Part shown: one piece after another, positions 2,593 to 12,598 of the stretch | Numbering within the stretch: the first letter of the stretch is position 1 | Layout: each line of letters opens with the position of its first letter | NCBI GenBank assembly: GCA_002887195.1 | Contig: PJAB01001727.1 | Location: 1 to 12,598 of the forward strand | Direction of reading: 5' to 3' | From: Chrysochromulina parva | Lineage: Eukaryota > Haptophyta > Prymnesiales > Chrysochromulinaceae | Length of the DNA: 12,598 nucleotides | Made by a program: the position numbers and the translations under genes | The notes under the pieces: model-generated | What the model saw: only the letters and a program-made list of their open reading frames with translations | Database searches by the model: none | What the model was told of the DNA's origin: nothing

Positions 2593-5500
2593 ATGCGCAA
2601 GGCAGCCAGCGTCCTGCTCCTCGTCGGCTGGTCAAGCGCAAAGCCGCGAGGCGAGGATGACCCCAGCAGCCCAATTAACCGCCTGAAGGCCGACCTGCAC
2701 AAGCTCTCGTTCGAGGAGGCCAAGATGCGCTTCGGCGAAATCAATGTTCGAGGGCCGCCGCCGCCGCGCCAGAACAAGGTCGACCACTTCGTGGTGCTGT
2801 ACATGGAGAACCACGCGGCCGACAACTTCTTCGGCTGCATGGACCTGCCCGGCTTCGACGGCATCAAGGGGCACAAGCTCCCAAAGGACCCTTCCGACCC
2901 GAGCAAGGGCACGTTTGAGGTGACGTGCGGCAAAGCGGACTACGTGTGCAAGGGCGGGCCGGGGTACGACACGTTCGCTGGCAAGTTCCCCAAGACGGGC
3001 GCGATGCCCCACATCTACCCGTACTCCGAACAGAGCGACGTCAACTCCGCGCTGCACGGTGCGACCGAGGGCGGCGTCGCCACGACCATGTACGGGCCCG
3101 AGCAGGTGCGGTATGACCACTGTGAATGACCACTGTGAATGACCACTGTGAATGACTTCTGCTCAAGGAGGGGATCTCCTCCGGGCAGAGCACGAGGTCT
3201 GCTTGCATGCGCTCGCCTCTGATCGAGCTCGATGTGATGTGATTTCCCGTGCAGATTCCCATCAAATCGGCGATCGCGCAAAACTTCGGCGTCTTCAACA
3301 AGTTGTACACCGCCGTCCCGTCGGCCTCGTCCCCGAATCATCTCTTCACCCAATCGGCGACGTCGTGCGGCATGCAGCACAACGGGCTGTACAACGACTG
3401 CCTCGGGCCGACGGTCATGTTCCCGCAATTCACGATCTATGACAATATGCGGCTGCACAACGTGAGTCTCGACCCTCCCTCAGTGCATGCTAATTGCCCT
3501 CCCTCAGTGCATGCTAATTGCCCTCCCTTATTGCATGCTAATTGCCCTCCCTCATTGCACAACGTGAGTCTCGACCCTCCCTCGTCTGATGACGTCTAAT
3601 TGCCTTCCGATGGCGTCCGATGGCAATCGAGATCTACCTCATCTAATTGCCCTAATTGCCATCTAATTGCCTTCCGATGGCGTCCGATGGCGTCCGATGG
3701 CCGCAGGTGAGCTTCGAGATCTACCTCAACTCCACTTGCGGACTCGACGGCACACCTTGCCACGGTAGGAACATCACAACAGCCTCGATCTCCTCGCGCC
3801 AGATCCAACCTCCCTAATTGCATGCTAATTGCCCTCCCTCATCGCATGCAGGCGAGGATCCGCACGACCCTGACTCCGCCTCCGCCATCAACACCCCGGA
3901 TGTGGCCATGGCTGGTGTCGCTCGCCACATCGACCGCTTCATCTCGCAGGTGTGGGGAACGAGCCGCGCTGAGTGCGCCTGATTGCCCTCCCTCATTGCA
4001 TGCTGATTGCCTCGGAGCTTGCCGCCATGCCCAATTTTGAATGCAGTAAGGTATCAGAGAATCTCAATGACGCCTTCGTGTATCCATGATGGTGCAGCTC
4101 GACAGCTCTCCCTTGAGTACCCTCGGAGTACCCTCGGAGTACCCTCTGATTGCCCTTTAAGTACCCTCTGAGTACCCTCTGAGTACCCTCTGAGTACCCT
4201 CTCATTGCGCCCTGATCTCCCCCGATCTCACGTCCGCGCTCAATCGTTGCATCACTCAGACGACCTTTTATCAGCGTGCGGCCAACGGATCGCTTCCACA
4301 GCTCTCGTGGCTCCTCCCGCCACTGCAGGTGATGACCACTGATTGCCCTCTGATTGCCCTCCGGATCGCTTCCACAGCTCTCGCGATTGCCCTCTGATTG
4401 CCCTCTGATTGCCCTCTGATTGCCCTCTGATTGCCCTCCGGATCGCTTCCACAGCTCTCGCGATTGCCCTCTGATTGCCCTCTGATTGCCCTCTGATTGC
4501 CCTCGATGGCACGTCATTGCATGCTGATCACCCTCGATGGCAGGCGTGCGACCACCCGTGCTATGACGTGGCCAAAGGCGAGCGCCTCCTCAAGGACGTC
4601 TATGAAGCACTGCGTGCGTGGACTAGCCTGATCGCCCTCAAATTACCAGCTCATCGCCCTCTGATTGCCTTCTCATCGCCCTCTGATTGCCATCTCATCG
4701 CCCTCTGATTGCCTTCTCATCGCCCTCTGATTGCCTTCTCATCGCCCTCTGATTGCCATCTCATCGCCCTCTGATTGCCAGACGATTGAACGCTCATTGC
4801 GTATGCTTTCCTAATATGGCAGGTGCGGGCCCCGGCTGGAACAAGACTCTCCTCTTCGTCGCGTACGACGACGCTGGTGGCTACTATGACCACGTGGTAC
4901 CCCCTATGGAGGGTGTGCCTGCGGATGAGGCGCCCTGCCACTTGACTGGACCGGACACGAATCCTCCATTCAAATGCCCGGGGGGTGGCAATGCTTTCGA
5001 CTTCCGACGGTGCGTGCGTGCCCTCTGATGGCCCTCTGATGCCCCCTCTGATGGCCCTCTGATGGCCCTTCTGATGGCCCTCTGATGGCCCTCTGATGGC
5101 CCTCTGATGCGCCCTCTGATGGCCCCCTCTGATTGCCCGTTGCCCCCTCTGATCGCCCAACCACCGCTCTCTTGCCACAGGCTCGGTCTGCGCACATCGG
5201 CTATGCTGATTGGTCCGATGGTGCCCAAGGGCGGCGTGTTCCAAACGCCCAAGGGCCCGTACAATACCTCGCAGGTGCACGCCCTCTGATGGCGTCGGAT
5301 GGCGTCGGATGGCGTCGCATTTCGTCGGATGGCGTCGCATCTCGTCTGATTACGTCGGATTACGTCGGATTACGTCTGATTACGTATGATTACGTATGAG
5401 TGTCTCTTTTGCCTGTCACTTCGATCTCGCAGTTTGAGCTCACATCGGTGCCCGCGACTGTTAAGAACCTCTTCAACCTGTCTGGCTTCCTCACCAAGCG

Positions 5501-6284
5501 CGACGCGTAAGCGGACTGATGGCCTCTGCTGGCGTCTGATTGCGTCCAAATTGCCTCTGATGACGCTCCGATGGCCTCTGATGGCCTCTGATTGCGTCCA
5601 AATTGCCTCTGATAGCCTCCGATGGCCTTTGAGGACCTCGAATTGCGTCTGATTGCGTCTGATTGCGTCTGTCATCGGCGCAGGTGGGCGGGCTCCTTCG
5701 ACGAGCTTCTGCTCGACAAGCCTCGGCCCGAGGCTGATTGCCCTCTTCATCTGCCCGAGGCACCGAAGCCCGCCGCGCCGTGGAACCCCCCGCCGCCCGG
5801 GACGGCGCCCGTGCACGGCTACCAGGAGGGAGGGTATCGTGTCGAGGACGACGGCGATGACGACGGCGACGACGTTGAAGAGGACGATGACGACGGCAAT
5901 GAGCACGGCGAGAGGCGCCGGCACCGGCGCGCCCTGTCGGTGGGCGTCGCTGGCGCGGTACAGAAGGCGAGCGCTTCGCCGCCCGCGCAGCACTGCTCGT
6001 CGATCCACGGCGAGCCCGAGGTGCGATCTCCCTGGATGAGCACTGATTGCGTCTGTCACCGCATGGCCCTGCGTGCAAGTGCTCACCACGACGCCATCTC
6101 CCCACAGGTGCCGTGCGCGGGCGTCAAGGTGCCCAACCTCAAGCAGAGGCGTAACTTGCGGCTGCTGTCCCAGCTGACAAACTCCCCTGAACCGGATGTG
6201 GAGAGCATGACGTTCACGGAGGCGGACCGTTGGATCGGCGCCAAATGGAAGCAGTGGATCCAGCAGGGCGCTCCCTTCAAGTGA
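2593..6284 (+). CDS. Secreted phosphoesterase (phospholipase C / acid phosphatase family), 11 exons
   Basis: Exons inferred from GT-AG sites and frame: 2593-3105, 3255-3461, 3707-3764, 3852-3949, 4260-4328, 4544-4613, 4823-5009, 5181-5274, 5433-5506, 5684-6020, 6108-6284. Together they give 1884 nt, 627 residues. I start at ATG 2593, giving a signal peptide (RK, then ASVLLLVGWSSA). Family blocks in order: ENHAADNFFG (72-81, metal-binding Glu-Asn), AVPSASSPNH (191-200, nucleophile region, Ser where many members have Thr), GSLPQLSWLLP, CDHPCYDVAKGERLLKDVYEAL, and FVAYDDAGGYYDHVVPP (350-366, with YDD for the commoner YDE). The family cleaves phosphate esters of phospholipids or small phosphomonoesters; substrate cannot be told. 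Exon 10 adds an acidic stretch (about 510-534) followed by RRRHRR. Exon 5 (TTFYQRAANGSLPQLSW) is short but bridges exons 4 and 6 as the family requires. A further exon inside 3950-4259 is not fully excluded. Confidence 0.85.
3106..3254 (+). repeat. Phosphoesterase intron 1 with 13-bp triplication
   Basis: Donor CAG|GTGCGG, acceptor CGTGCAG|ATTCCC, phase 0. The unit GACCACTGTGAAT occurs three times in tandem at 3115-3153. This intron does not carry the 10/11-bp TGATTGC-type units of its sisters. Reading through meets a stop within the first repeat. Confidence 0.8.
3462..3706 (+). repeat. Phosphoesterase intron 2, repeat array plus copies of flanking exon ends
   Basis: Donor CACAAC|GTGAGT, acceptor CCGCAG|GTGAGC, phase 0. 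Positions 3481-3552 hold three 24-bp units built on TGCATGCTAATTGCCCTCCC. A 27-bp exact copy of the exon 2 / intron 2 junction (3455-3481) recurs at 3557-3583, including a usable second donor GTGAGT. Positions 3627-3641 (TCGAGATCTACCTCA) are an exact copy of exon 3 bases 3714-3728. Units of CCGATGGCGT precede both copies. Confidence 0.85.
3765..3851 (+). repeat. Phosphoesterase intron 3
   Basis: 87-nt intron; donor CACG|GTAGGA, acceptor GCATGCAG|GCGAGG, phase 1. Its 3' half carries two diverged CTAATTGCATG / CTAATTGCCCTCCCT units like those of intron 2, immediately before the acceptor. Confidence 0.75.
3950..4259 (+). repeat. Phosphoesterase intron 4 with 11-bp GAGTACCCTCT array
   Basis: Donor TCGCAG|GTGTGG, acceptor ATCACTCAG|ACGACC, phase 0. 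About eight units of GAGTACCCTCT/GAGTACCCTCG occupy about 4114-4202, with one GATTGCCCTTTA unit among them. It is the longest intron and has the least repeat at its 5' end; the stretch around 4049-4090 is single-copy, so a missed exon there is possible, but none that I tried keeps frame. Confidence 0.65.
4329..4543 (+). repeat. Phosphoesterase intron 5 with 11-bp array and two exon-5 copies
   Basis: Donor CTGCAG|GTGATG, acceptor GATGGCAG|GCGTGC, phase 0. GATTGCCCTCT units fill most of it. A 22-bp stretch of exon 5 (4286-4307, containing GATCGCTTCCACAGCTCT) is copied exactly at 4362-4383 and 4439-4460, giving a 77-bp higher-order period. Each copy brings an acceptor-like TTCCACAG. Confidence 0.85.
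4614..4822 (+). repeat. Phosphoesterase intron 6 with 22-bp array
   Basis: Donor CTGC|GTGCGT, acceptor ATATGGCAG|GTGCGG, phase 1; splicing creates the Arg codon in EALRAGPGW. The array (about 4650-4785) alternates two 11-bp units, CTCATCGCCCT and CTGATTGCCWT, six or seven times. The motif CTAAT lies shortly before the acceptor. Confidence 0.85.
5010..5180 (+). repeat. Phosphoesterase intron 7 with 11-bp CTGATGGCCCT array
   Basis: Donor CGACG|GTGCGT, acceptor TTGCCACAG|GCTCGG, phase 2. About ten CTGATGGCCCT units, some with one inserted or lost base, occupy about 5022-5130. A GATTGCCC and a GATCGCCC unit follow before the acceptor. Confidence 0.85.
5275..5432 (+). repeat. Phosphoesterase intron 8 with exact 10-bp array
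   Basis: Donor TCGCAG|GTGCAC, acceptor TCTCGCAG|TTTGAG, phase 0. From about 5287 to 5396 there are eleven units with a strict 10-bp period, GATGGCGTCG grading into GATTACGTCG and then GATTACGTAT. This is the clearest example of unit drift along one array. Confidence 0.85.
5507..5683 (+). repeat. Phosphoesterase intron 9 with 10-bp array
   Basis: Donor GACGC|GTAAGC, acceptor ATCGGCGCAG|GTGGGC, phase 2. Units such as GATGGCCTCT, GATTGCGTCC and AAATTGCCTC fill about 5518-5671 and finish with three copies of GATTGCGTCT before the acceptor. Confidence 0.85.
6021..6107 (+). repeat. Phosphoesterase intron 10, 87 nt, in frame and without stops
   Basis: Donor CCCGAG|GTGCGA, acceptor CCCCACAG|GTGCCG, phase 0. 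It contains one GATTGCGTCT unit matching intron 9. Its length is a multiple of three and it has no stop in frame, so retention would add 29 residues. I call it an intron because of the unit, the splice sites and the matching GTGC at both junctions; it could be coding. Confidence 0.6.
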
Positions 6285-7453
6285 GCGCTCCTACTTTGGA
6301 TCAAGCGGGCTCCTAAAAGCAGGCGCATCCTCATCGATGGAGCGAATCCGGGCACCGGTAGGGTACCAGGGTGGAAACTGGGAGCCAACCAAGGGCAACG
6401 GGTGACGCTGCGCGCGCGTGCGGAGACATTGACGATGGCGTGGCGCGCGATGGGCAGGCGATGCGTGTGGAACACGAAATCGTGCAGAAACGACGTGTCT
6501 GAAACGTCGTGACATGGATGCGACCCCGACGCGACACATGTGCAAATCACAATCGCGGCGCGCGGACCACGCGAAAGACGGCGACCCCGAGCCGAGCCGA
6601 GCGTTGTGGACAAGTGCGTGTACGTGTGAGTAAACTCTAAACAGGTAACGTTATTACGAGAGCACGCCTCGCCTCTCGTCTGTATCGTGTGCGCCTGTGC
6701 GGCAGGGGCAGCCGCGAGCCGGCCGAACGCGAAGCAACGCCTCATCGCCAACTACGCGACCGTGCACCGTCACGTCGCACCCCGGCGCGGCCGCGGGGCG
6801 CCGTGGAGAGCGCTGACCCGGGACCGCGGTGGGGCGGTGCGTCGGGTCATGCGTCGGGTACGTCCAACCGGGTCCATGCCAACGTTTTGCCAACGTCGCA
6901 CATGGCGTGGTACGTCGCAACGGTAGCGGTACGTCGGCGGGGTCGGCATATGGGGGTCGGCCGCCCGTCCCGCTCCCGGCCGCGGCAACGAGCGCGGCGT
7001 GCCGCGCGCTCACCCGCTCTCTATAATCTATAACCCCGCCGGTAACGCCGTGCGGTGTGCGGCGTTAAAACGAAATGAAAAATCAGATAATCACCAGCAG
7101 ACGAGATCGAGATCGGATGTGGGATGGCAACTGACGCTCGAGACTCGCGACCAGCGACTCAGACTGTATCCCCGAACATGCACACCTATGTCCTATCTCA
7201 CACGGCGTGACGGCGGGTCCGCCGCGCCGCCGGTCGTGTTCGTCACTCACGTGCGCCTCTCTGACATCCCATGTCAAGAGATCAACGCGGTGTGCCGTGA
7301 GCCACACACACAGGCCGTGAGCGCGTATCTCCAAAGTGAAAGCGAAGAAACGCCGTAAATGCGTAAAGCGGCAGTACCCGCTGCCGGCGGCTCCATCATG
7401 TGCATGTCGAAGAGTTTGGTCACCGGGCAGTTGCCATTCGGCAAGTGCACCTC
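6285..7453. other. 1.17-kb intergenic region between convergent genes, no supported gene
   Basis: The region lies between the stop of the plus-strand phosphoesterase and the stop of the minus-strand unknown gene, so both 3' UTRs must fall here. Open frames are present on both strands but show only the composition expected of GC-rich sequence and no recognisable domain. A short AT-rich island, TATAATCTATAA, lies at 7020-7031. I see no tRNA- or rRNA-like segment and no long tandem array. Confidence 0.5.
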
Positions 7454-8074
7454 CTACGTTGAGTCCAACCGAACGCCCTCTGGGTCCGACTGAACGTCGT
7501 CTGAACCCAAGGGCCCGCCGTCAGCAGGCGCAACCTCGCCATCGGACGCCTCGCCTGTCAGCATCGTCACCAGCTTCCCTAGGAGCACCTCGCTCGGATT
7601 CCCATACGTCGCATTCAGATACACCGTCGCAGCACACCACGCCACGGCGACGAGTACGGTCAAGATGGGCATCCATCCGCAGAACCCCTGCCCGGTCTCG
7701 TAGCGCCGGTCGGCCAGGAACCGCTCGTACATCTCCTTGTCGCCTCCGGTTCCGGGCAACGCTCCTCGGTACTCAAGGGGCTTCGAAGAGTCCATCGGTA
7801 TCGGTTCGGAGTTGCGGCCACCCGCGTCGTCATAAGGCCGGTACACTTGGCCACTCTGCTCGTCATAAGCTCGCGCCTTGAGCTCGTTACAAGCTCGAAA
7901 GTTCGCCTCGCGCGCCGCTGCGCGTTTTGCGCTGTGCGCGGCTCTGACCTCGTCATCGTCTACGGATGCGAGGCTCTCTCGCACCTTGTCCGCCTCGGCA
8001 TAGTTCGGGCATCGCCAGTGGTGCAGACCTTCCTCCGGGTTGATGCAGCCTTTCAAGCATTTGCCCTTCGCCAT
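7454..8074 (-). CDS. Unknown 206-residue protein with Cys/His N-terminus and one membrane span
   Basis: I do not recognise the family. The start is the first in-frame ATG (8074-8072); the frame is open a little further upstream but without ATG. The first 25 residues contain C6, C10, H18, H19 and C22 (KCLKGC, then GLHHWRCP), a spacing that could bind one zinc, though no named finger matches. Residues about 35-70 are charged and Ala-rich, probably helical. A hydrophobic stretch at about 134-153 (MPILTVLVAVAWCAATVYL) is a single transmembrane segment, leaving some 50 acidic residues after it. It is neither a signal peptide nor a strict tail anchor. The gene is divergent from the FKBP-like gene, 215 bp away, so the two may be co-regulated. 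It appears intronless. Confidence 0.65.
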   Translation of the reverse strand: MAKGKCLKGCINPEEGLHHWRCPNYAEADKVRESLASVDDDEVRAAHSAKRAAAREANFRACNELKARAYDEQSGQVYRPYDDAGGRNSEPIPMDSSKPLEYRGALPGTGGDKEMYERFLADRRYETGQGFCGWMPILTVLVAVAWCAATVYLNATYGNPSEVLLGKLVTMLTGEASDGEVAPADGGPLGSDDVQSDPEGVRLDST

Positions 8075-8289
8075 CAGGTGTGGTCGGTGTGAGAGGTCCC
8101 CAACCACGGTCGACGAAGCGCCTGGATTCCTGCGACGAAGTCAGGCGTGTCAGAAAGTCAGAATCGCAGAAAACGCCCGTGACGGATTTTGCGGTCTCGA
8201 CGAGCCCACCGCAACATGCTCAACAATTGTCGCGACGTCTCACTTGCTCACTACAAAAAGCGATCACGGCTGCTCTCCAAAAAGCGATC
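8075..8289. promoter_or_regulatory. Divergent intergenic region between unknown membrane protein and FKBP-like gene
   Basis: Both start codons face outward from this 215-bp gap, so it probably holds both promoters. A 13-bp direct repeat, CAAAAAGCGATCA, occurs at 8254-8266 and 8278-8290; the second copy ends on the A of the FKBP-like start codon. The promoter role is inferred from position. Confidence 0.45.
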
Positions 8290-8967
8290 ATGAGCCACGA
8301 GGCCAATTTGCCAATTATGTCAACCAGTATCGAGGACGAGCGCGCCGTGCTCGCTGCCGAGCGCGCCGCCGTCGCTGCCGAGCGCGCCGCTCTGAATGTC
8401 GAGCGTTCCGTCCTCACGCAGCGCAAGCAAGTCCTAAAGGACTCGTCCTCCGAGGAAGCGCCATCGAAGGAAGGCCAGACCGTTCAGATTCTACCTGGCC
8501 TCACGAAGACCATCATGCGGCAAGGCCGCGGGCCGACGCCTACGGCAGGGCAGCTCGTCCGAATCGAATACGAGGTCCGAGTGACAAACGGAGCTCAGGC
8601 CGGCGCTGGCATGATCTTCAACATCATCGGCCAGCGCCAGCTTGTGAAGCGTGAGCCTGCAGGTCGGCTCGCTCTGCGTCAGGCCTTCAACCTGGGTGAT
8701 GTCCCGTTGCGATGCCCCATCATGTTCGACAGTACAGTCGCCACGATGCAGGCAGGAGAGCTCTGCACCGTCACGTCCCTCCCTTGCTACGCTTTCCGGG
8801 AGAGAGGGATGAATGACGTGCCGGGCGACTCGCATGTGGAGCTCGAGATTTATCTCGCGGATTTTGAGGATGATGAGCGACAGCCGCTGAGTAACTTCAC
8901 CGTCTTCCTCATCCTCTTTTTCATCACGGCAATGTGCTACTACGCCCGTCAAGAGATGCCCTTTTGA
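8290..8967 (+). CDS. FKBP-like protein with C-terminal membrane anchor
   Basis: 225 residues from ATG 8290, the first in-frame ATG, with A at -3; a second ATG at 8317 is an alternative. Residues about 15-50 form a likely coiled coil with the repeated motif LAAERAAVAAERAAL. Residues about 64-192 resemble an FKBP domain: GLTKTIMRQGRGPTPTAGQLVRI near the first strands, MQAGELCTVTSLPCYAFRERG and the closing VELEIYLADF. Known FKBPs are peptidyl-prolyl cis-trans isomerases. Here the FD pair is absent from the usual loop and the active-site Trp is not found where MFDSTVATM sits, so catalysis is doubtful and a chaperone or scaffold role is as likely. A hydrophobic segment at about 203-219 followed by RQEMPF suggests a tail-anchored protein facing the cytosol. 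Divergent from the unknown membrane protein. Confidence 0.72.
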   Translation: MSHEANLPIMSTSIEDERAVLAAERAAVAAERAALNVERSVLTQRKQVLKDSSSEEAPSKEGQTVQILPGLTKTIMRQGRGPTPTAGQLVRIEYEVRVTNGAQAGAGMIFNIIGQRQLVKREPAGRLALRQAFNLGDVPLRCPIMFDSTVATMQAGELCTVTSLPCYAFRERGMNDVPGDSHVELEIYLADFEDDERQPLSNFTVFLILFFITAMCYYARQEMPF

Positions 8968-9228
8968 AACGCAAGGAGAAGACGCAGGACACATAAGACA
9001 AAAACCCCGCCCGGATAAGATGCGCGGTGCCATGATTGTATACGGTACATGTAAGAGAACATGAGAGGCTAAAGCGTGCCCCCCGTCCCAGCCAACCACG
9101 GTTGACGCACCAGATGGAGCAAAGTCTAGGAGCTTATTTTTCTGGATCGCCGTCGGTCATGGTGCCGAACAGCTGCTGGCCCCGTTCCCGCACCGCGTCT
9201 GCGACCCCTCGCCGCTCGCCGCTTTGGA
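8968..9228. other. Intergenic region, nothing recognised
   Basis: Between the FKBP-like stop and the next start. It should contain the 3' UTR of one gene and the promoter of the next. Short frames here have no family features, and I see no repeat or RNA gene. Confidence 0.4.
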
Positions 9229-10005
9229 ATGCAAGCGGGAGGGCCGCCTCATGTGGATTCGTTCGTCGTCTCCACCGTGAGCCGTGCTCCTAGGATCATC
9301 GATCGAGGCACGGCACACGCAGCGATGATTTTCACTGATCTGCTACGAAAGGAACGTACTTCATCGCAGCCCGAAAATCGTCTCAGATTCGGGCACGACC
9401 TTGGATGCAGCCACGCGAGGTCGTGCCTGCATCCAAGGCAAGAGTCAAGAGTCGGGCAGAATGGCAATGGCGGTGCTGCTGGAAGCGATGCTAGTCACGG
9501 TGATAGCGGGAGCTCGACGGCGGGCTCGGAAGTGGCCTTGGATGCAGGCACGACCTCGCGGGCCCGCGATGCCGTCAGCTTGATCTACGAAGAGACCATC
9601 GATGCCGTCTTCGCCATCGAGTCTGCACTCGAGCCGCTCGCGGGTCCTCCTGCGCCACTGCCATGGGAGATCAAGGGGCTGCGCAACGCTCAGGCGTCCT
9701 CGCCCGCAGCAGCAGGCTACCGGCGTGCAGGCAAGACGTCTTGCGCCGCGATGATGAGCGACCTATACCATCGTTTCCAGATGAGCAACCCATACCAGCG
9801 CGACGAGGTGGCGTGTGGCGCGCCGCAAGATAAGCTTCCCGTGCACACGGACACGAATCCCGTCTCCAAGCCCGAAAATGCCTTCGAGGCGGCAGCAGAG
9901 GAGGCGGCCCGCGCCGCGGGCTCGTCGCAGATCGCATGTGGCTCGTCGCAGATCGCATGTGGCTCGTCGCAGATCGCCGCTGGCTCGTCGCAGATCGCGT
10001 GGTGA
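9229..10005 (+). CDS. Unknown protein with C-terminal GSSQIA repeats
   Basis: A 258-residue open frame starting with ATG at 9229. I do not recognise it. The first 90 residues have uneven composition and contain a 25-bp inverted repeat in DNA, so this part may instead be non-coding or hold an unrecognised intron. The middle (about 112-190: DAVSLIYEETIDAVFAIESALEP, MMSDLYHRFQMSNPYQRDEV) looks like ordinary folded protein. An Ala/Glu helix (AFEAAAEEAARAA) leads into four tandem repeats of GSSQIA(C/A/W) just before the stop. No signal peptide or membrane span. A minisatellite begins about 20 bp after the stop. The true start and exon structure are uncertain. Confidence 0.45.
   Translation: MQAGGPPHVDSFVVSTVSRAPRIIDRGTAHAAMIFTDLLRKERTSSQPENRLRFGHDLGCSHARSCLHPRQESRVGQNGNGGAAGSDASHGDSGSSTAGSEVALDAGTTSRARDAVSLIYEETIDAVFAIESALEPLAGPPAPLPWEIKGLRNAQASSPAAAGYRRAGKTSCAAMMSDLYHRFQMSNPYQRDEVACGAPQDKLPVHTDTNPVSKPENAFEAAAEEAARAAGSSQIACGSSQIACGSSQIAAGSSQIAW
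9414..9560. repeat. 25-bp perfect inverted repeat with about 97-bp spacer
   Basis: Positions 9414-9438 are the exact reverse complement of 9536-9560 (core CCTTGGATGCAGGCACGACC). A third, rearranged copy, GCACGACCTTGGATGCAG, lies at 9393-9410 with the two halves in swapped order, and it forms an 11-bp hairpin arm with 9414-9438. It sits inside the unknown open frame. It could be a small fold-back element or a decayed mobile insertion. Confidence 0.7.
9929..10003 (+). repeat. 21-bp coding tandem repeat (GSSQIA)
   Basis: Four tandem 21-bp units, GGCTCGTCGCAGATCGC plus a variable end, encode GSSQIAC, GSSQIAC, GSSQIAA and GSSQIAW immediately before the TGA at 10003-10005. Near-identity of the units suggests recent slippage. 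Confidence 0.85.
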
Positions 10006-10026
10006 GCCACAGTCATGTCGGTCGGC

Positions 10027-10234
10027 AACGATACAACGAGACGGCGAGATACAACGACACAACGATACAACAGGACAACGAGATACAAGGAGATAAACAA
10101 CGATACAACGATACAACAGGACAAACGAGATACAACGACACAACGATACAACAGGACGGCGAGATACACGGAGATACAACGACACCACGATACAACGAGA
10201 TACAACGAGATACAACGACACAACGATACAACGT
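10027..10234. repeat. GATACAACGA-type minisatellite
   Basis: About 208 bp built from short units related to GATACAACGA, CACAACGATACAACAGGA and GAGATACAACGA. A longer segment beginning GAGATACAACGACACAACGA recurs at 10046, 10127 and 10207, so there is a higher-order period of about 80-81 bp. It lies directly downstream of the unknown protein gene. The plus strand is almost free of T, so the base composition is strongly skewed. Open frames across it are repeat artefacts. Confidence 0.9.
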
Positions 10235-10565
10235 GAGAGTGTGATGGGTATGGAAGCACTGGAAGCAAGGAGAGCGCGAGCGGTCGTCCTCGCCCGCGAG
10301 CTGCGGCAGGACGGCGGGGACGGCGCGTGTGGTGTCTGCCATGGGCGATGGGGACGGTGGTGGGGAGAGTGACGCACGTTCACAACTCACTGGCTTCCAC
10401 AGATGCCGGTTCGTACAGTACTTGTACACAAGTCAAGTATGTACATAAACAACAGAAAACCATACGGAAGCCTATCGAATGTGCTCCGGAAGCCAGCAGG
10501 GGAGGACGGGAGTGGGCGGGACTTGACTTGACTTGACTTGACTTACTTGTACATCACACGCAACG
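10235..10565 (+). promoter_or_regulatory. Region upstream of methyltransferase gene, with ACTTG microsatellite
   Basis: No gene is supported here. Four tandem ACTTG units at 10521-10540, followed by ACTTACTTG, end some 17 bp before the methyltransferase ATG. A related segment, TACTTGTACACAAGTCAAGT, lies at about 10419-10438 and contains the palindrome CTTGTACACAAG-like core. These could be promoter or 5' UTR elements; the role is inferred from position. Confidence 0.4.
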
Positions 10566-11956
10566 ATGCTCGAGGCGCGTCGTCAGCCCCTTGTCAAGAC
10601 CGACTCTGGCGGCGGCTCAACCGCCGGCCAGATTTGGAACGCCTCACGGGTGTTCGCGGACGTGCTGCTACACAGGCCGCCCGGCAGCGAGAACTCGCAG
10701 CGAACATTCCTCGAGCTCGGTTGCGGCACTGGATACCTTGCGCTGCGCCTTGCGGCCGCCGTCAAAGGCACAAAGGTGATCGCGACCGACATGCCAAATG
10801 TCATGAAACCGCTGCGTCAGAACGTGAATCGCAATCATCTTGGCCACGCCATCCGCTGCGTGGCCTGGGACTGGAATGGCGAAGCACCATGTGCGATCGA
10901 CTGGGGCTCTGTGACGCACTGCATCGCCGTCGAGGTGATCTACTACAACGAATCGTCAGGGAACTCGAGCGAAGCGTTGGCGCGAGCGATCGCGACGGTG
11001 CTCGAGCGCGGAACCGCGAGCATCGAGGTGCTTCTCGTGCTTGATTGCGCTTGATGGCGCTTGATGGCGCTTGATGGCGCTTGATGGCGCTTGATGGCCT
11101 CCCTCATCAGGTGCTGCTCATGCTTCGCGTGCGCGTCAACACCGGGAGCGCCACATCGGGCGTCCTCGAGCCCTCGGATGAGTACGACCATCGCTCGGCC
11201 GTCTGGCATTTTGTGGAGAAGTCGTTACCGAAGGTGGGGCTCTGATTGCACTTGATTGCAATTGATTGCCCTTGATTGTCAATCCGGTGCTCCTCGGCTG
11301 GCATGCAAACGCTCACGACGGCGCCTCCGCTTTCCCCACAGGCGGGGCTCTGGGCCGAGGACCTGGCGATTGATGCATGCCACCGGGGCGACGCTGGGCA
11401 TAGCATGCGCGGCCTACGCTTGTATCGGGTGCACAAGCGCTCGGCCTCGCCGACGACGCGCTCTCCCGCACGCCCAGGCGCCGTCGCCGCCGACATGGAG
11501 GATGAGGTACGGCATGTTGCTCACGACGGCGCTCCTTGGCAGGTTGCTCACGACGGCGCTCATTGTCAGGTTGCTCACGACGGCGCTCATTGTCAGGTTG
11601 CTCACGACGAGGACGGCCAAGGAGCGCCGTCTCGGGCGCAGCAGCAGCGCCTGCAGAAGGACGGGAAGCCAGCAGCAGCGGCGGGCGTCGTGGCGGGCGC
11701 TGACGAGGGCACGTGCCCAGCCTCAGGCCCGGTGGAGAGCGGCCACTGCGGCCACTTGGGTCCACGCGTGGAGGAGCTCGAAGACGCTCTAGCGGAGGCT
11801 GAGGCTGAGGGGGTGAGGGCACGGGCTGCAAGGACGGCTGCAGAGAGCTCTTATGTGAGGCTCACGCCCGAGGAGGCCAGGGCCCGTGGGTTTAGGGACG
11901 ATGAAGAGTTGGTGATGCCGATGCCCGTGGATGACAGCAGCGATGAGGAAGATTGA
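10566..11956 (+). CDS. Family-16-type S-adenosylmethionine methyltransferase, 3 exons, acidic C-terminal extension
   Basis: Exons 10566-11027, 11111-11233 and 11342-11956 join in phase 0 to give 399 residues. The start ATG has A at -3. The catalytic core resembles the METTL21/EEF2KMT group of protein lysine methyltransferases: GQIWNASRVFADVL (21-34), motif I FLELGCGTGYLAL (48-60), acidic residue after strand 2 in ATDMPN (73-78), the conserved WDW (101-103) and VEVIYY (122-127). Exon 2 supplies the late core strand VLLMLRVRV and AVWHFVEK. These enzymes methylate lysines in translation factors or chaperones; the substrate here cannot be told. Exon 3 adds about 200 residues: three VAHDGA repeats, a Gln/Ala-rich stretch, a helix (VEELEDALAEAEAEGVRARA) and the acidic end SSDEED. 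Part of exon 3 around 11510-11610 may be an unrecognised intron. Confidence 0.82.
11028..11110 (+). repeat. Methyltransferase intron 1 with 10-bp GCTTGATGGC array
   Basis: Donor ATCGAG|GTGCTT, acceptor CTCATCAG|GTGCTG, phase 0, 83 nt. Six near-exact 10-bp units of GCTTGATGGC (first one GCTTGATTGC) fill 11038-11098. The junction sequences AGGTGCTTCTCGTGCTT (11026-11042) and AGGTGCTGCTCATGCTT (11109-11125) match at 15 of 17 positions. Confidence 0.85.
11234..11341 (+). repeat. Methyltransferase intron 2 with TTGATTGC units
   Basis: Donor CCGAAG|GTGGGG, acceptor CCCCACAG|GCGGGG, phase 0, 108 nt. Four 10-bp units (TGATTGCACT, TGATTGCAAT, TGATTGCCCT, TGATTGTCAA) lie at 11243-11282. The junctions AGGTGGGGCTCTG (11232-11244) and AGGCGGGGCTCTG (11340-11352) differ at one base. 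The 3' part contains GCTCACGACGGCGC, also found in the exon 3 repeats. Confidence 0.85.
11515..11610 (+). repeat. 27-bp tandem repeat in methyltransferase exon 3
   Basis: Units of GTTGCTCACGACGGCGCTC followed by a variable CATTGTCAG-type end repeat three times, then decay into GTTGCTCACGACGAG. They encode VAHDGA(P/H)(W/C)Q. Each boundary reads CAG|GTT, so every unit ends like an acceptor and begins like a donor. The same core, GCTCACGACGGCGC, occurs in intron 2. Confidence 0.85.
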
Positions 11957-12598
11957 GGCGACCGCGCGAGTCGGTCGCGGAGGCGGTCGGGACTCGACCG
12001 CTCCGAGTCGCTCCCTCAGCGGCTGTGCACGAGTGTGGCCCGGTTGGGCGCCGACGCCGTGTTGGGCGAGTGGAGACCCAGCGGTGACCTCGGCGGTGCC
12101 TGTGGCTGCTGCTGCTGCGCCGCCGCCGCCAGGCGCCGTGTTGAGTCACGTCGCTCACGGCTTCGCTCCGCACGGAGCCCAACACGGCGTCGGAGCCCAA
12201 CACGGCGTCGGAGCCCAACACGGCGCCGGAGCCCAACACGGCGTCAGTCGCGGAGGGTTGTACCGCTGGAGCGCTGGAAGCTTTGGCAACGGCGGCAGCA
12301 GCAGCAGCGGCGGCGGCGGCGGAACTGGCGGAACTGACGGAACTGACGGAACTGACGGAACTGACGGAACTGACGGAACTGACGGAACTGACGGAACTGA
12401 CGGAACTGGCGGAACTGGCGGAACTGGCGGAACTGGCGGAACCGGCGGCGATGGCCCCTCGCCTTCGGCCACGCCCTCCCCTCTCCGGCGCTCTATCGCC
12501 CCGACCGGAGCAGCCTCGCCCTTGGCCAGCGTCAGTGCCGGAAACACGCCACCCCGCGCGGCAGCGGTCTCCTCGCTAGCGCGCGCGGCAAGGCCGGC
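11931..12598 (+). CDS. Possible repeat-rich protein, partial at right edge
   Basis: A frame open from ATG 11931 to the window end (222 codons, no stop); an in-frame TGA lies at 11913-11915. It overlaps the last 26 bases of the methyltransferase in another frame, which is unusual in a eukaryote, so the true gene may start later or this may be an exon of a gene beyond the window. Visible parts: a Pro/Ala run (VAAAAAPPPPPG-like), four GAQHGV hexapeptide repeats, GGLYRWSAGSFGNGGSSSSGGGGG, then about a dozen GTD or GTG tripeptides and a Ser/Pro/Ala-rich tail. The other plus frame (AELTELTEL) and the minus strand (PVPSVPSVP) are also open here, so coding is not proven. I chose this frame for its length and more varied content between repeats. 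Confidence 0.3.
   Translation, partial: MTAAMRKIEATARVGRGGGRDSTAPSRSLSGCARVWPGWAPTPCWASGDPAVTSAVPVAAAAAPPPPGAVLSHVAHGFAPHGAQHGVGAQHGVGAQHGAGAQHGVSRGGLYRWSAGSFGNGGSSSSGGGGGTGGTDGTDGTDGTDGTDGTDGTDGTDGTGGTGGTGGTGGTGGDGPSPSATPSPLRRSIAPTGAASPLASVSAGNTPPRAAAVSSLARAARP
12174..12242 (+). repeat. 18-bp tandem repeat GGAGCCCAACACGGCGTC
   Basis: Four tandem copies of GGAGCCCAACACGGCGTC, one with GCC at the end, occupy about 12174-12245. In the longest open plus frame they encode GAQHGV. A related single piece, GGGCGCCGACGCCGTGTTGGGC, lies upstream near 12045 in the opposite orientation. Confidence 0.85.
12321..12446 (+). repeat. 9-bp tandem repeat GGAACTGAC / GGAACTGGC
   Basis: About fourteen 9-bp units: one GGAACTGGC, about eight or nine GGAACTGAC, then four GGAACTGGC and a decayed GGAACCGGC. 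The period is a multiple of three, so all frames through it stay open: GTD/GTG, ELT/ELA or NWR-type on plus. Confidence 0.9.

Follow-up and report, generated by a model that had tools for sequence, protein, structure and literature searches.

Introns of Chrysochromulina parva built from 10-11-bp tandem units probably descend from introner-like insertions with long target duplications

Genes and introns in the window

We analyzed a 12,598-bp stretch of the genome of the freshwater haptophyte Chrysochromulina parva, the entire contig PJAB01001727.1 (C1727; hereafter the window), which carries a phospholipase-C-like gene (PF04185) and a methyltransferase gene (PF10294) with introns containing 10-11-bp tandem units of the core TGATKGC. 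All genome-wide counts refer to the 45.07-Mb assembly GCA_002887195.1 (2,199 contigs). We consider it probable that these introns descend from introner-like insertions, each consisting of a repeat-built piece together with a 13-45-bp duplication of the target. Seeding of introns by such an element, which an earlier note on this DNA had put forward, is well supported for the copies that we sampled, by 3' ends that recur at hundreds of places and by the duplications that flank them.

The window holds 12 introns, ten in the phospholipase-C-like gene and two in the methyltransferase gene, together 16% of its length (Table 1). The first ten were placed by alignment to P0001, a 627-aa protein from a public collection, with which the spliced product has 6 mismatches in 627 aa, and all ten read GT...CAG; the other two were placed by alignment to the proteins P0122 and P0126. 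Because P0122 has IEVLLMLRVRV across the junction, the start that the earlier note had given for methyltransferase intron 1 was corrected to 11028 (GAG/GTGCTT, with the slash at the splice junction). Our own gene finder, which was tried on the ten known introns, found all of them at only 4 of 12 settings and kept 3 window introns after a score filter when run on whole loci; it serves in a support role only. A conserved chaperonin encoded in the assembly matches a protein labelled Chrysochromulina tobinii with 100% identity over 540 aa, which points to that species or a close one. The published genome of C. tobin is given, in the accessible text of its report, as 59 Mb with 63.4% GC and an average of one intron per gene (PMC4580454).

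We rejected the idea that the assembly is a bin of two organisms, as the tetranucleotide profiles of the window and of a background sample of 20 further 10-kb stretches showed no clear split. On the second axis of these profiles, the array-rich loci L025 and L021 and the window lie low and the array-bearing locus L027 does not; the arrays themselves contribute to this axis.

Table 1. Coordinates of the two genes, their introns, and associated repeats in the window
Feature	Position	Strand	Description
Phospholipase-C-like gene (PF04185)	2593..6284	+	11 exons, 10 introns; PF04185 match in exon 2
Intron 1, 149 nt	3106..3254	+	13-bp unit ATGACCACTGTGA x3.4; TGATKGC family absent
Intron 2, 245 nt	3462..3706	+	24-bp units with CTAATTG, plus TCCGATGGCG units
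Intron 3, 87 nt	3765..3851	+	units CTAATTGC; end TGCCCTCCCTCATCGCATGCAG
Intron 4, 310 nt	3950..4259	+	array of GAGTACCCTCT; single intron, not two
Intron 5, 215 nt	4329..4543	+	array of CTGATTGCCCT
Intron 6, 209 nt	4614..4822	+	array, 22-bp unit ATCGCCCTCTGATTGCCATCTC
Intron 7, 171 nt	5010..5180	+	array of GCCCTCTGATG (CTGATGGCCCT)
Intron 8, 158 nt	5275..5432	+	array GATGGCGTCG / GATTACGTCG
Intron 9, 177 nt	5507..5683	+	array, CTGATGGCGT-type
Intron 10, 87 nt	6021..6107	+	single TGATKGC word; family-b-like 3' end GCGTGCAAGTGCTCACCACGACGCC...CCCCACAG
Methyltransferase gene (PF10294)	10566..11956	+	spliced product 399 aa, 2 introns
Methyltransferase intron 1, 83 nt	11028..11110	+	position backed by P0122
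Exonic copy 2 of 15-nt duplication	11111..11125	+	GTGCTGCTCATGCTT; beside methyltransferase intron 1
Methyltransferase intron 2, 108 nt	11234..11341	+	copy 1 of 11-nt duplication, then TGATTGCACT units
Exonic copy 2 of 11-nt duplication	11342..11352	+	GCGGGGCTCTG against GTGGGGCTCTG
Exonic 27-bp tandem repeat	11511..11609	+	codes VAHDGAHCQ

The TGATKGC unit lies in introns, on the coding strand

On its plus strand the window holds 45 copies of TGATKGC, 43 of them in introns (1,999 nt), one in exons (3,084 nt), and one elsewhere (7,515 nt); the minus strand has none in introns, two in exons, and one elsewhere. Markov-1 resampling of the window introns (300 runs) yielded the word 2.1 times on average and 7 times at most. 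These data confirmed that one unit family runs through the introns of both genes, as the earlier note had observed: it is present in 11 of 12, the exception being intron 1 of the phospholipase-C-like gene with its 13-bp unit, and the private variants named for individual introns were found as named. The further claim, that exons are free of the arrays, holds almost entirely; the exception is exon 10, where one 13-nt unit lies at 5734. The independent expansion of each intron's repeats was borne out as well, the arrays being private to each intron, which indicates that local expansion is real.

Tandem pairs of TGATKGC occur at 7,539 places in the assembly, compared with 13 for the reversed control, and the total of arrays extrapolates to roughly 2,300 from the first 100 listed places, all of which lie on the longest contigs. 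When spacings of at most 40 are considered, successive words are 10 apart in 63 of 121 cases, and 11, 12, and 13 are also seen. Within the 20 background stretches, TGATTGC is present in 16, with a 4.9-fold enrichment over its Markov expectation; with homopolymers set aside, only TACATGT ranks higher among the 7-mers that occur 40 times or more. Tandem pairs are present in only 3 of the 20 stretches, indicating a patchy distribution. The earlier note had named a lack of the unit from most other introns as a finding that would refute its reading, and this is seen in part: TGATKGC occurs in only 22 of 76 higher-scoring introns predicted by our gene finder, a set that contains false introns.

The orientation of the word follows that of the genes. 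For 76 clusters in the fetched loci, flanking coding sequence shares the strand of the word on 121 sides and runs opposite to it on 6, in a sample for which some loci (L001-L004) had been picked because the word was present; the window contributes 13 clusters, with 23 sides on the coding strand and 0 opposite. Coding strands were called with a model trained on chaperonin genes and on open frames of the same stretches, which placed the true frame top of six in 10 of 11 phospholipase-C-like exons and narrowly second in the last. Seven of the chaperonin (CCT) matches (L030-L039) are full-length in one open frame and two more are cut by contig ends; the divergent match L039 is broken into exons, and arrays lie in the gaps. 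Recent introns may avoid highly conserved genes.

Finally, we assessed the unit as a splicing signal. In 11 of the 12 window introns a yTnAy motif precedes the intron end by 8-45 nt, compared with 19% for 375 other CAGs, and the U2 small nuclear RNA of the assembly has the standard GTAGTA. Judged by its motif, the TGATKGC unit likely acts as a branch point. Selection for the word inside introns was the other origin offered by the earlier note; such selection, if it acts on a branch point, is compatible with these counts, but because yTnAy is built into the unit the enrichment is no proof of branch-point selection. Under a reading with no dispersal, a branch-point word (CTGAT, CTAAT, or CTCAC) would be selected in every intron and multiplied by slippage, so that the arrays converge. 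The motif counts, the standard U2 sequence, and the private array of each intron speak for this; against it, by our own reasoning, TGC or GGC after CTGAT is not expected from U2 pairing.

Two 3' ends recur throughout the assembly

Recurring 3' ends were first noticed among predicted introns. Family a, TGATKGCCTCCCTCATCAG/G, is found at 785 exact places in the assembly and family b, GCATGCAAGYGCTCACCACGGCGCC, at 329, with both controls at 0 in each case; these are exact-word matches, most of them not individually shown as introns. The window carries a family-a end at methyltransferase intron 1 and relatives of family b at methyltransferase intron 2 and at intron 10 of the phospholipase-C-like gene.

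A search of Rfam at the gathering threshold (8 sources) gave no match. A viral origin was rejected: the family-a word is in no contig of IMG/VR, in a collection that may omit records near the window's genome, and a family-b intron end lies at the end of a single contig (L090:4495-4554, IMGVR_UViG_3300027760_000958), beside another small repeat; this contig is perhaps chimeric. Elsewhere in the assembly, the 20-mer intron end recurs at spacings of 57, ~65, and 69 bp (L061 on C189, C43:45695-45985, and C32:51208-51365), and in L061 the whole segment of duplication plus insert is repeated in tandem, as unequal exchange between the flanking repeats would produce.

Target duplications flank the methyltransferase introns

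Donor-side duplications are clear in 2 of the 12 window introns, namely both methyltransferase introns. The first is composed, in order, of duplication copy 1 (GTGCTTCTCGTGCTT, after a shared AG), six TGATKGC words, and the family-a 3' end CTCCCTCATCAG; its duplication scores 12, and none of 1,056 mismatched pairs exceeds 11. Intron 2 has a family-b-like end, GCATGCAAACGCTCACGACGGCGCC...CCCCACAG, and the score of its duplication is matched by ~0.1% of mismatched pairs. Comparison with the proteins showed that the original mRNA is restored at both sites; the splice sites of these two introns have a dual origin, in the duplication and in the insert.

The related proteins P0126-P0130 share 79-95% identity with the product over the common part. 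They start inside intron 1 with MALDGLPHQ or a similar peptide, which is the translated family-a end, and read uninterrupted over the site of intron 2, which is apparently absent in these relatives. If their sequences are unspliced genomic reads, intron 1 would be shared and intron 2 a recent gain. In the same gene, the VAHDGAHCQ repeat has GCTCACGACGGCGC (14 nt) in common with the family-b-like end of intron 2, and its copy number varies among relatives (e.g. P0126, P0127, P0130, P0134, and P0138); for these two reasons the repeat is probably an exonized, still-changing piece.

Sampled copies carry long and variable duplications

We then examined 48 copies at the first listed places of each family, 32 of the 329 of family b and 16 of the 785 of family a. 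Direct repeats of nearby sequence flank the insert in 34 of 48 (10/16 for family a and 24/32 for family b), whereas they were scored in 12 of 384 mismatched pairs (3%); a variant of the test with left extension detected a duplication in 37 of 48, with no separate null. For 46 copies an acceptor could be presumed, and in 29 of these (8 family-a and 21 family-b inserts) a duplication starting at the presumed junction exceeded 99% of 1,150 mismatched pairs. These duplications are 13-45 nt long. Fourteen are free of mismatches, and 15 are mismatched.

The usual layout is exon, copy 1 beginning GTnnn, an insert ending CAG, and copy 2 beginning GTnnn. A reverse layout, with the acceptor in copy 2, was found in L027 (27 nt, exact) and L004 (22 nt), and the 28-nt exact copy in L044 is of the same type. 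Around the 48 copies, the flanking sequence codes in the direction of the insert on 57 sides and in the opposite direction on 9; another 30 sides are undecided. We detected no conserved 5' start among the 29 inserts, and when terminal inverted repeats were scored against the 95% level of shuffled sequence, only 1 of 8 family-a inserts and none of the 21 of family b exceeded it.

Assemblies tend to contain errors at repeats and in short contigs, and misassembled short reads could in principle create false duplications and arrays. The splice points are backed by independent proteins, however, the copies are spread over many contigs, and about half of the duplications differ between their two copies as counted above, which makes an assembly artefact extremely improbable.

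Some copies may survive in frame

Five of the 37 duplicated copies have no acceptor at the junction (L046, L048, L051, L067, and L069). Their total length is divisible by 3 in all five cases, and the other 32 divide 12/8/12 by remainder; the acceptor classes were defined only once the data had been inspected, which keeps the nominal chance of 1 in 243 from being a clean test. L046 and L069 have an open frame with a high coding score that runs antisense to the insert, and L069 contains two such inserts. The frames of L048 and L051 are open with negative coding scores, and an in-frame reading of L067 was rejected because it has no open frame. Together, these data suggest, short of proof, that insertion occurs in either orientation and that copies survive when they are spliced or in frame. 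For the sampled copies as a group, we infer from their layout that the mRNA is unchanged.

These results bear directly on selection of the branch-point word without dispersal, which leaves unexplained both the 20- and 25-mers that are exact at hundreds of places and the flanking duplications with the antisense in-frame copies. We rejected word selection, or a neutral minisatellite, as the whole account on the strength of the long shared tails and flanking duplications, and we regard convergence without dispersal as very unlikely.

Evidence weighing against descent from insertions

Several observations count against an origin of the introns by insertion and duplication. The first concerns the phospholipase-C-like gene itself, which supplies most of the finding. 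None of its ten introns has a donor-side duplication that is significant relative to mismatched pairs, and on the acceptor side the matches are weak: short ones above the 99% level at introns 1 and 8, and one above 95% at intron 4. The end of intron 1 weakly matches that of the upstream exon (CCCGTGCAG / CCCGAGCAG), as does the end of intron 8 (CTCGCAG). Since these introns are hardly or not at all duplicated, their descent is inferred from units and tails. Among 25 predicted array introns outside the window, no donor-side match exceeds the 95% level (in a differently scored test 2 of 21 do), and 6 acceptor-side matches exceed it, 2 of those long.

Second, the 48 copies lie mainly on the longest contigs, and because exact words at the 3' end were used to pick them, the fixed 3' end seen in family a follows in part from the selection. 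Two of the 29 copies with junction duplications, L051 and L067, also belong to the group of five that lack an acceptor at the junction; some of the matches pair repeat units (L052, L057, L068, L085, and L088), and in L052, L068, and L085 the duplication takes in insert sequence that occurs repeatedly. The proposal does not account for the fillers of 0-48 nt between the duplication and the family-b core; 5' transduction of the donor flank was rejected as their source after two were tested, one having no other match in the assembly and one a single match with 3 mismatches. Duplications could also be enriched relative to deletions if selection favors outcomes that keep the reading frame. In 13 of the 32 acceptor-ended copies an open sense frame runs through the insert and both flanks, so splicing is not forced there. 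Finally, P0126-P0130 are only presumed to be unspliced genomic reads.

Fragments of exons inside two phospholipase-C-like introns are expected from repeated local duplication. Intron 2 holds 15 nt of exon 3, at 3627, and the array of intron 5 includes two exact copies (4362 and 4439) of 22 nt from exon 5 (source 4286). A relative's phospholipase-C-like protein, P0012, is encoded on a 256-kb contig (contig 255,929) and shows 69% identity at 94% coverage; if P0012 is a raw open frame, its gene lacks most of the ten introns.

A proposed route of intron gain

We propose that the insert would consist of one to many 10-11-bp TGATKGC units, which contain a CTnAy branch-point-like motif, or of a family-b module, with an acceptor at its end. 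Entering an exon, it would duplicate 13-45 bp of the target and so come to lie between direct repeats. In the usual layout, copy 1 would supply the 5' splice site (GT) and the insert the branch point and acceptor; in the second layout, the donor would come from the insert and the acceptor from copy 2. Either arrangement would restore the original mRNA. Slippage or unequal exchange could later multiply the units, and the whole segment of duplication plus insert, giving rise to private arrays and captured exon fragments. Huff and colleagues reportedly described in 2016 introns with one splice site derived from the target duplication.

The insertion step is the least certain part of this proposal. 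The variable 5' start, the usually fixed 3' end, the variable duplications, and the lack of terminal inverted repeats fit the filling of a staggered break or target-primed reverse transcription better than a cut-and-paste transposase.

The inserts could be ordinary introners as in other algae, miniature non-autonomous DNA transposons moved by a transposase. The introners of diverse eukaryotes in Gozashti et al. 2022 (PMC9860276), which include those of a marine Chrysochromulina sp. metagenome-assembled genome, are likewise described in the accessible text as similar introns at many non-homologous sites, inserted with a target duplication, with splice sites split between element and duplication (the element carrying the acceptor, the duplication providing the donor) and mRNA mostly unchanged. 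According to the same text, however, some earlier families have duplications of 3-9 bp, and the example from the marine Chrysochromulina has a 4-bp duplication carrying the 5' splice site, compared with a variable 13-45 nt here; the body of 10-bp tandem units is a further difference. The missing 5' consensus and the near absence of terminal inverted repeats (1 of 29 inserts exceeds the 95% level) also argue against a transposon, which we consider unlikely. The Amoebophrya introner elements are comparable in that repeated introns carry direct repeats at exon/intron boundaries; the available text of PMC7789003 reports inverted repeats of 8-20 nt, direct repeats of 3-5 nt, and mostly non-canonical splice sites, whereas GT-AG sites bound the window introns and no clear inverted repeats are seen in the sampled inserts.

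Target-primed retro-insertion, in which the RNA of an intron, or a SINE-like RNA, serves at a nick as template for reverse transcription starting at its 3' end, would account for a 3' end that is mostly fixed, in copies chosen by 3' words, together with a 5' start and a duplication length that vary. However, the usual 3' end is missing in L044, L046, L048, L067, and L069, and matches to reverse transcriptase (PF00078) in the 45-Mb assembly number only 5 and are weak (best E 3.8e-7), so this route too seems to us improbable.

The third route is repair of staggered breaks with a short templated insert, the filler being taken from existing introns, as proposed for new introns in Daphnia. There, as far as the accessible text of PMC4202315 goes, new introns attributed to staggered double-strand breaks carry a direct repeat of the adjacent exon at the far end of the intron as well as internal repeats; these repeats are 4-12 bp, whereas the duplications here are longer and the inserts come from dispersed families. 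Variable duplications, the private filler of 0-48 nt, and the variability of both insert ends in some copies favor break repair, but alone it gives no account of the same two 3'-end modules being reused hundreds of times, and we regard it as possible but doubtful.

Tentatively, and at somewhat less than an even chance, we suggest mass intron gain that is free of transposase: staggered breaks with overhangs of 13-45 nt would receive a copy of a ready-made branch-point/acceptor cassette of 10-bp units, and the missing splice site would come from the duplicated end of the exon. If true, this would unite introners and break-repair intron gain in one process, perhaps an ongoing one in view of the 14 duplications free of mismatches.

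Whichever insertion step applies, the proposed insertions look like an unusual type of introner, with a tandem body, without terminal inverted repeats, and with long, variable target duplications. We found no account of a TGATKGC intron family in the accessible open-access literature on introners and algal intron gain, not counting the supplementary tables of PMC9860276. Low-complexity families were removed by eye according to the methods as seen in PMC9860276, so a family of tandem units could have been dropped.

The origin of new spliceosomal introns is a long-standing question, and introners described with target duplications, in the accessible part of PMC9860276, have short ones. Because the scar is long, often free of mismatches, and readable gene by gene, target choice, splice-site source, orientation, and age would be measurable for hundreds of events, and this small haptophyte genome gives an unusually clear view of how introns may arise. 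Low-complexity filters could hide such families, and unspliced copies may survive as in-frame peptide insertions.

Other repeats in the window

Two further repeats lie outside both genes. A 123-bp tandem repeat at 1-917 falls within long open frames of 1-2400 on the minus strand; this region is possibly a repeat-protein gene, perhaps of ARM-like type. Near the contig end, CGGAACTGA is repeated x13.7 in tandem at 12320-12442, open as a (TEL)n-type frame.

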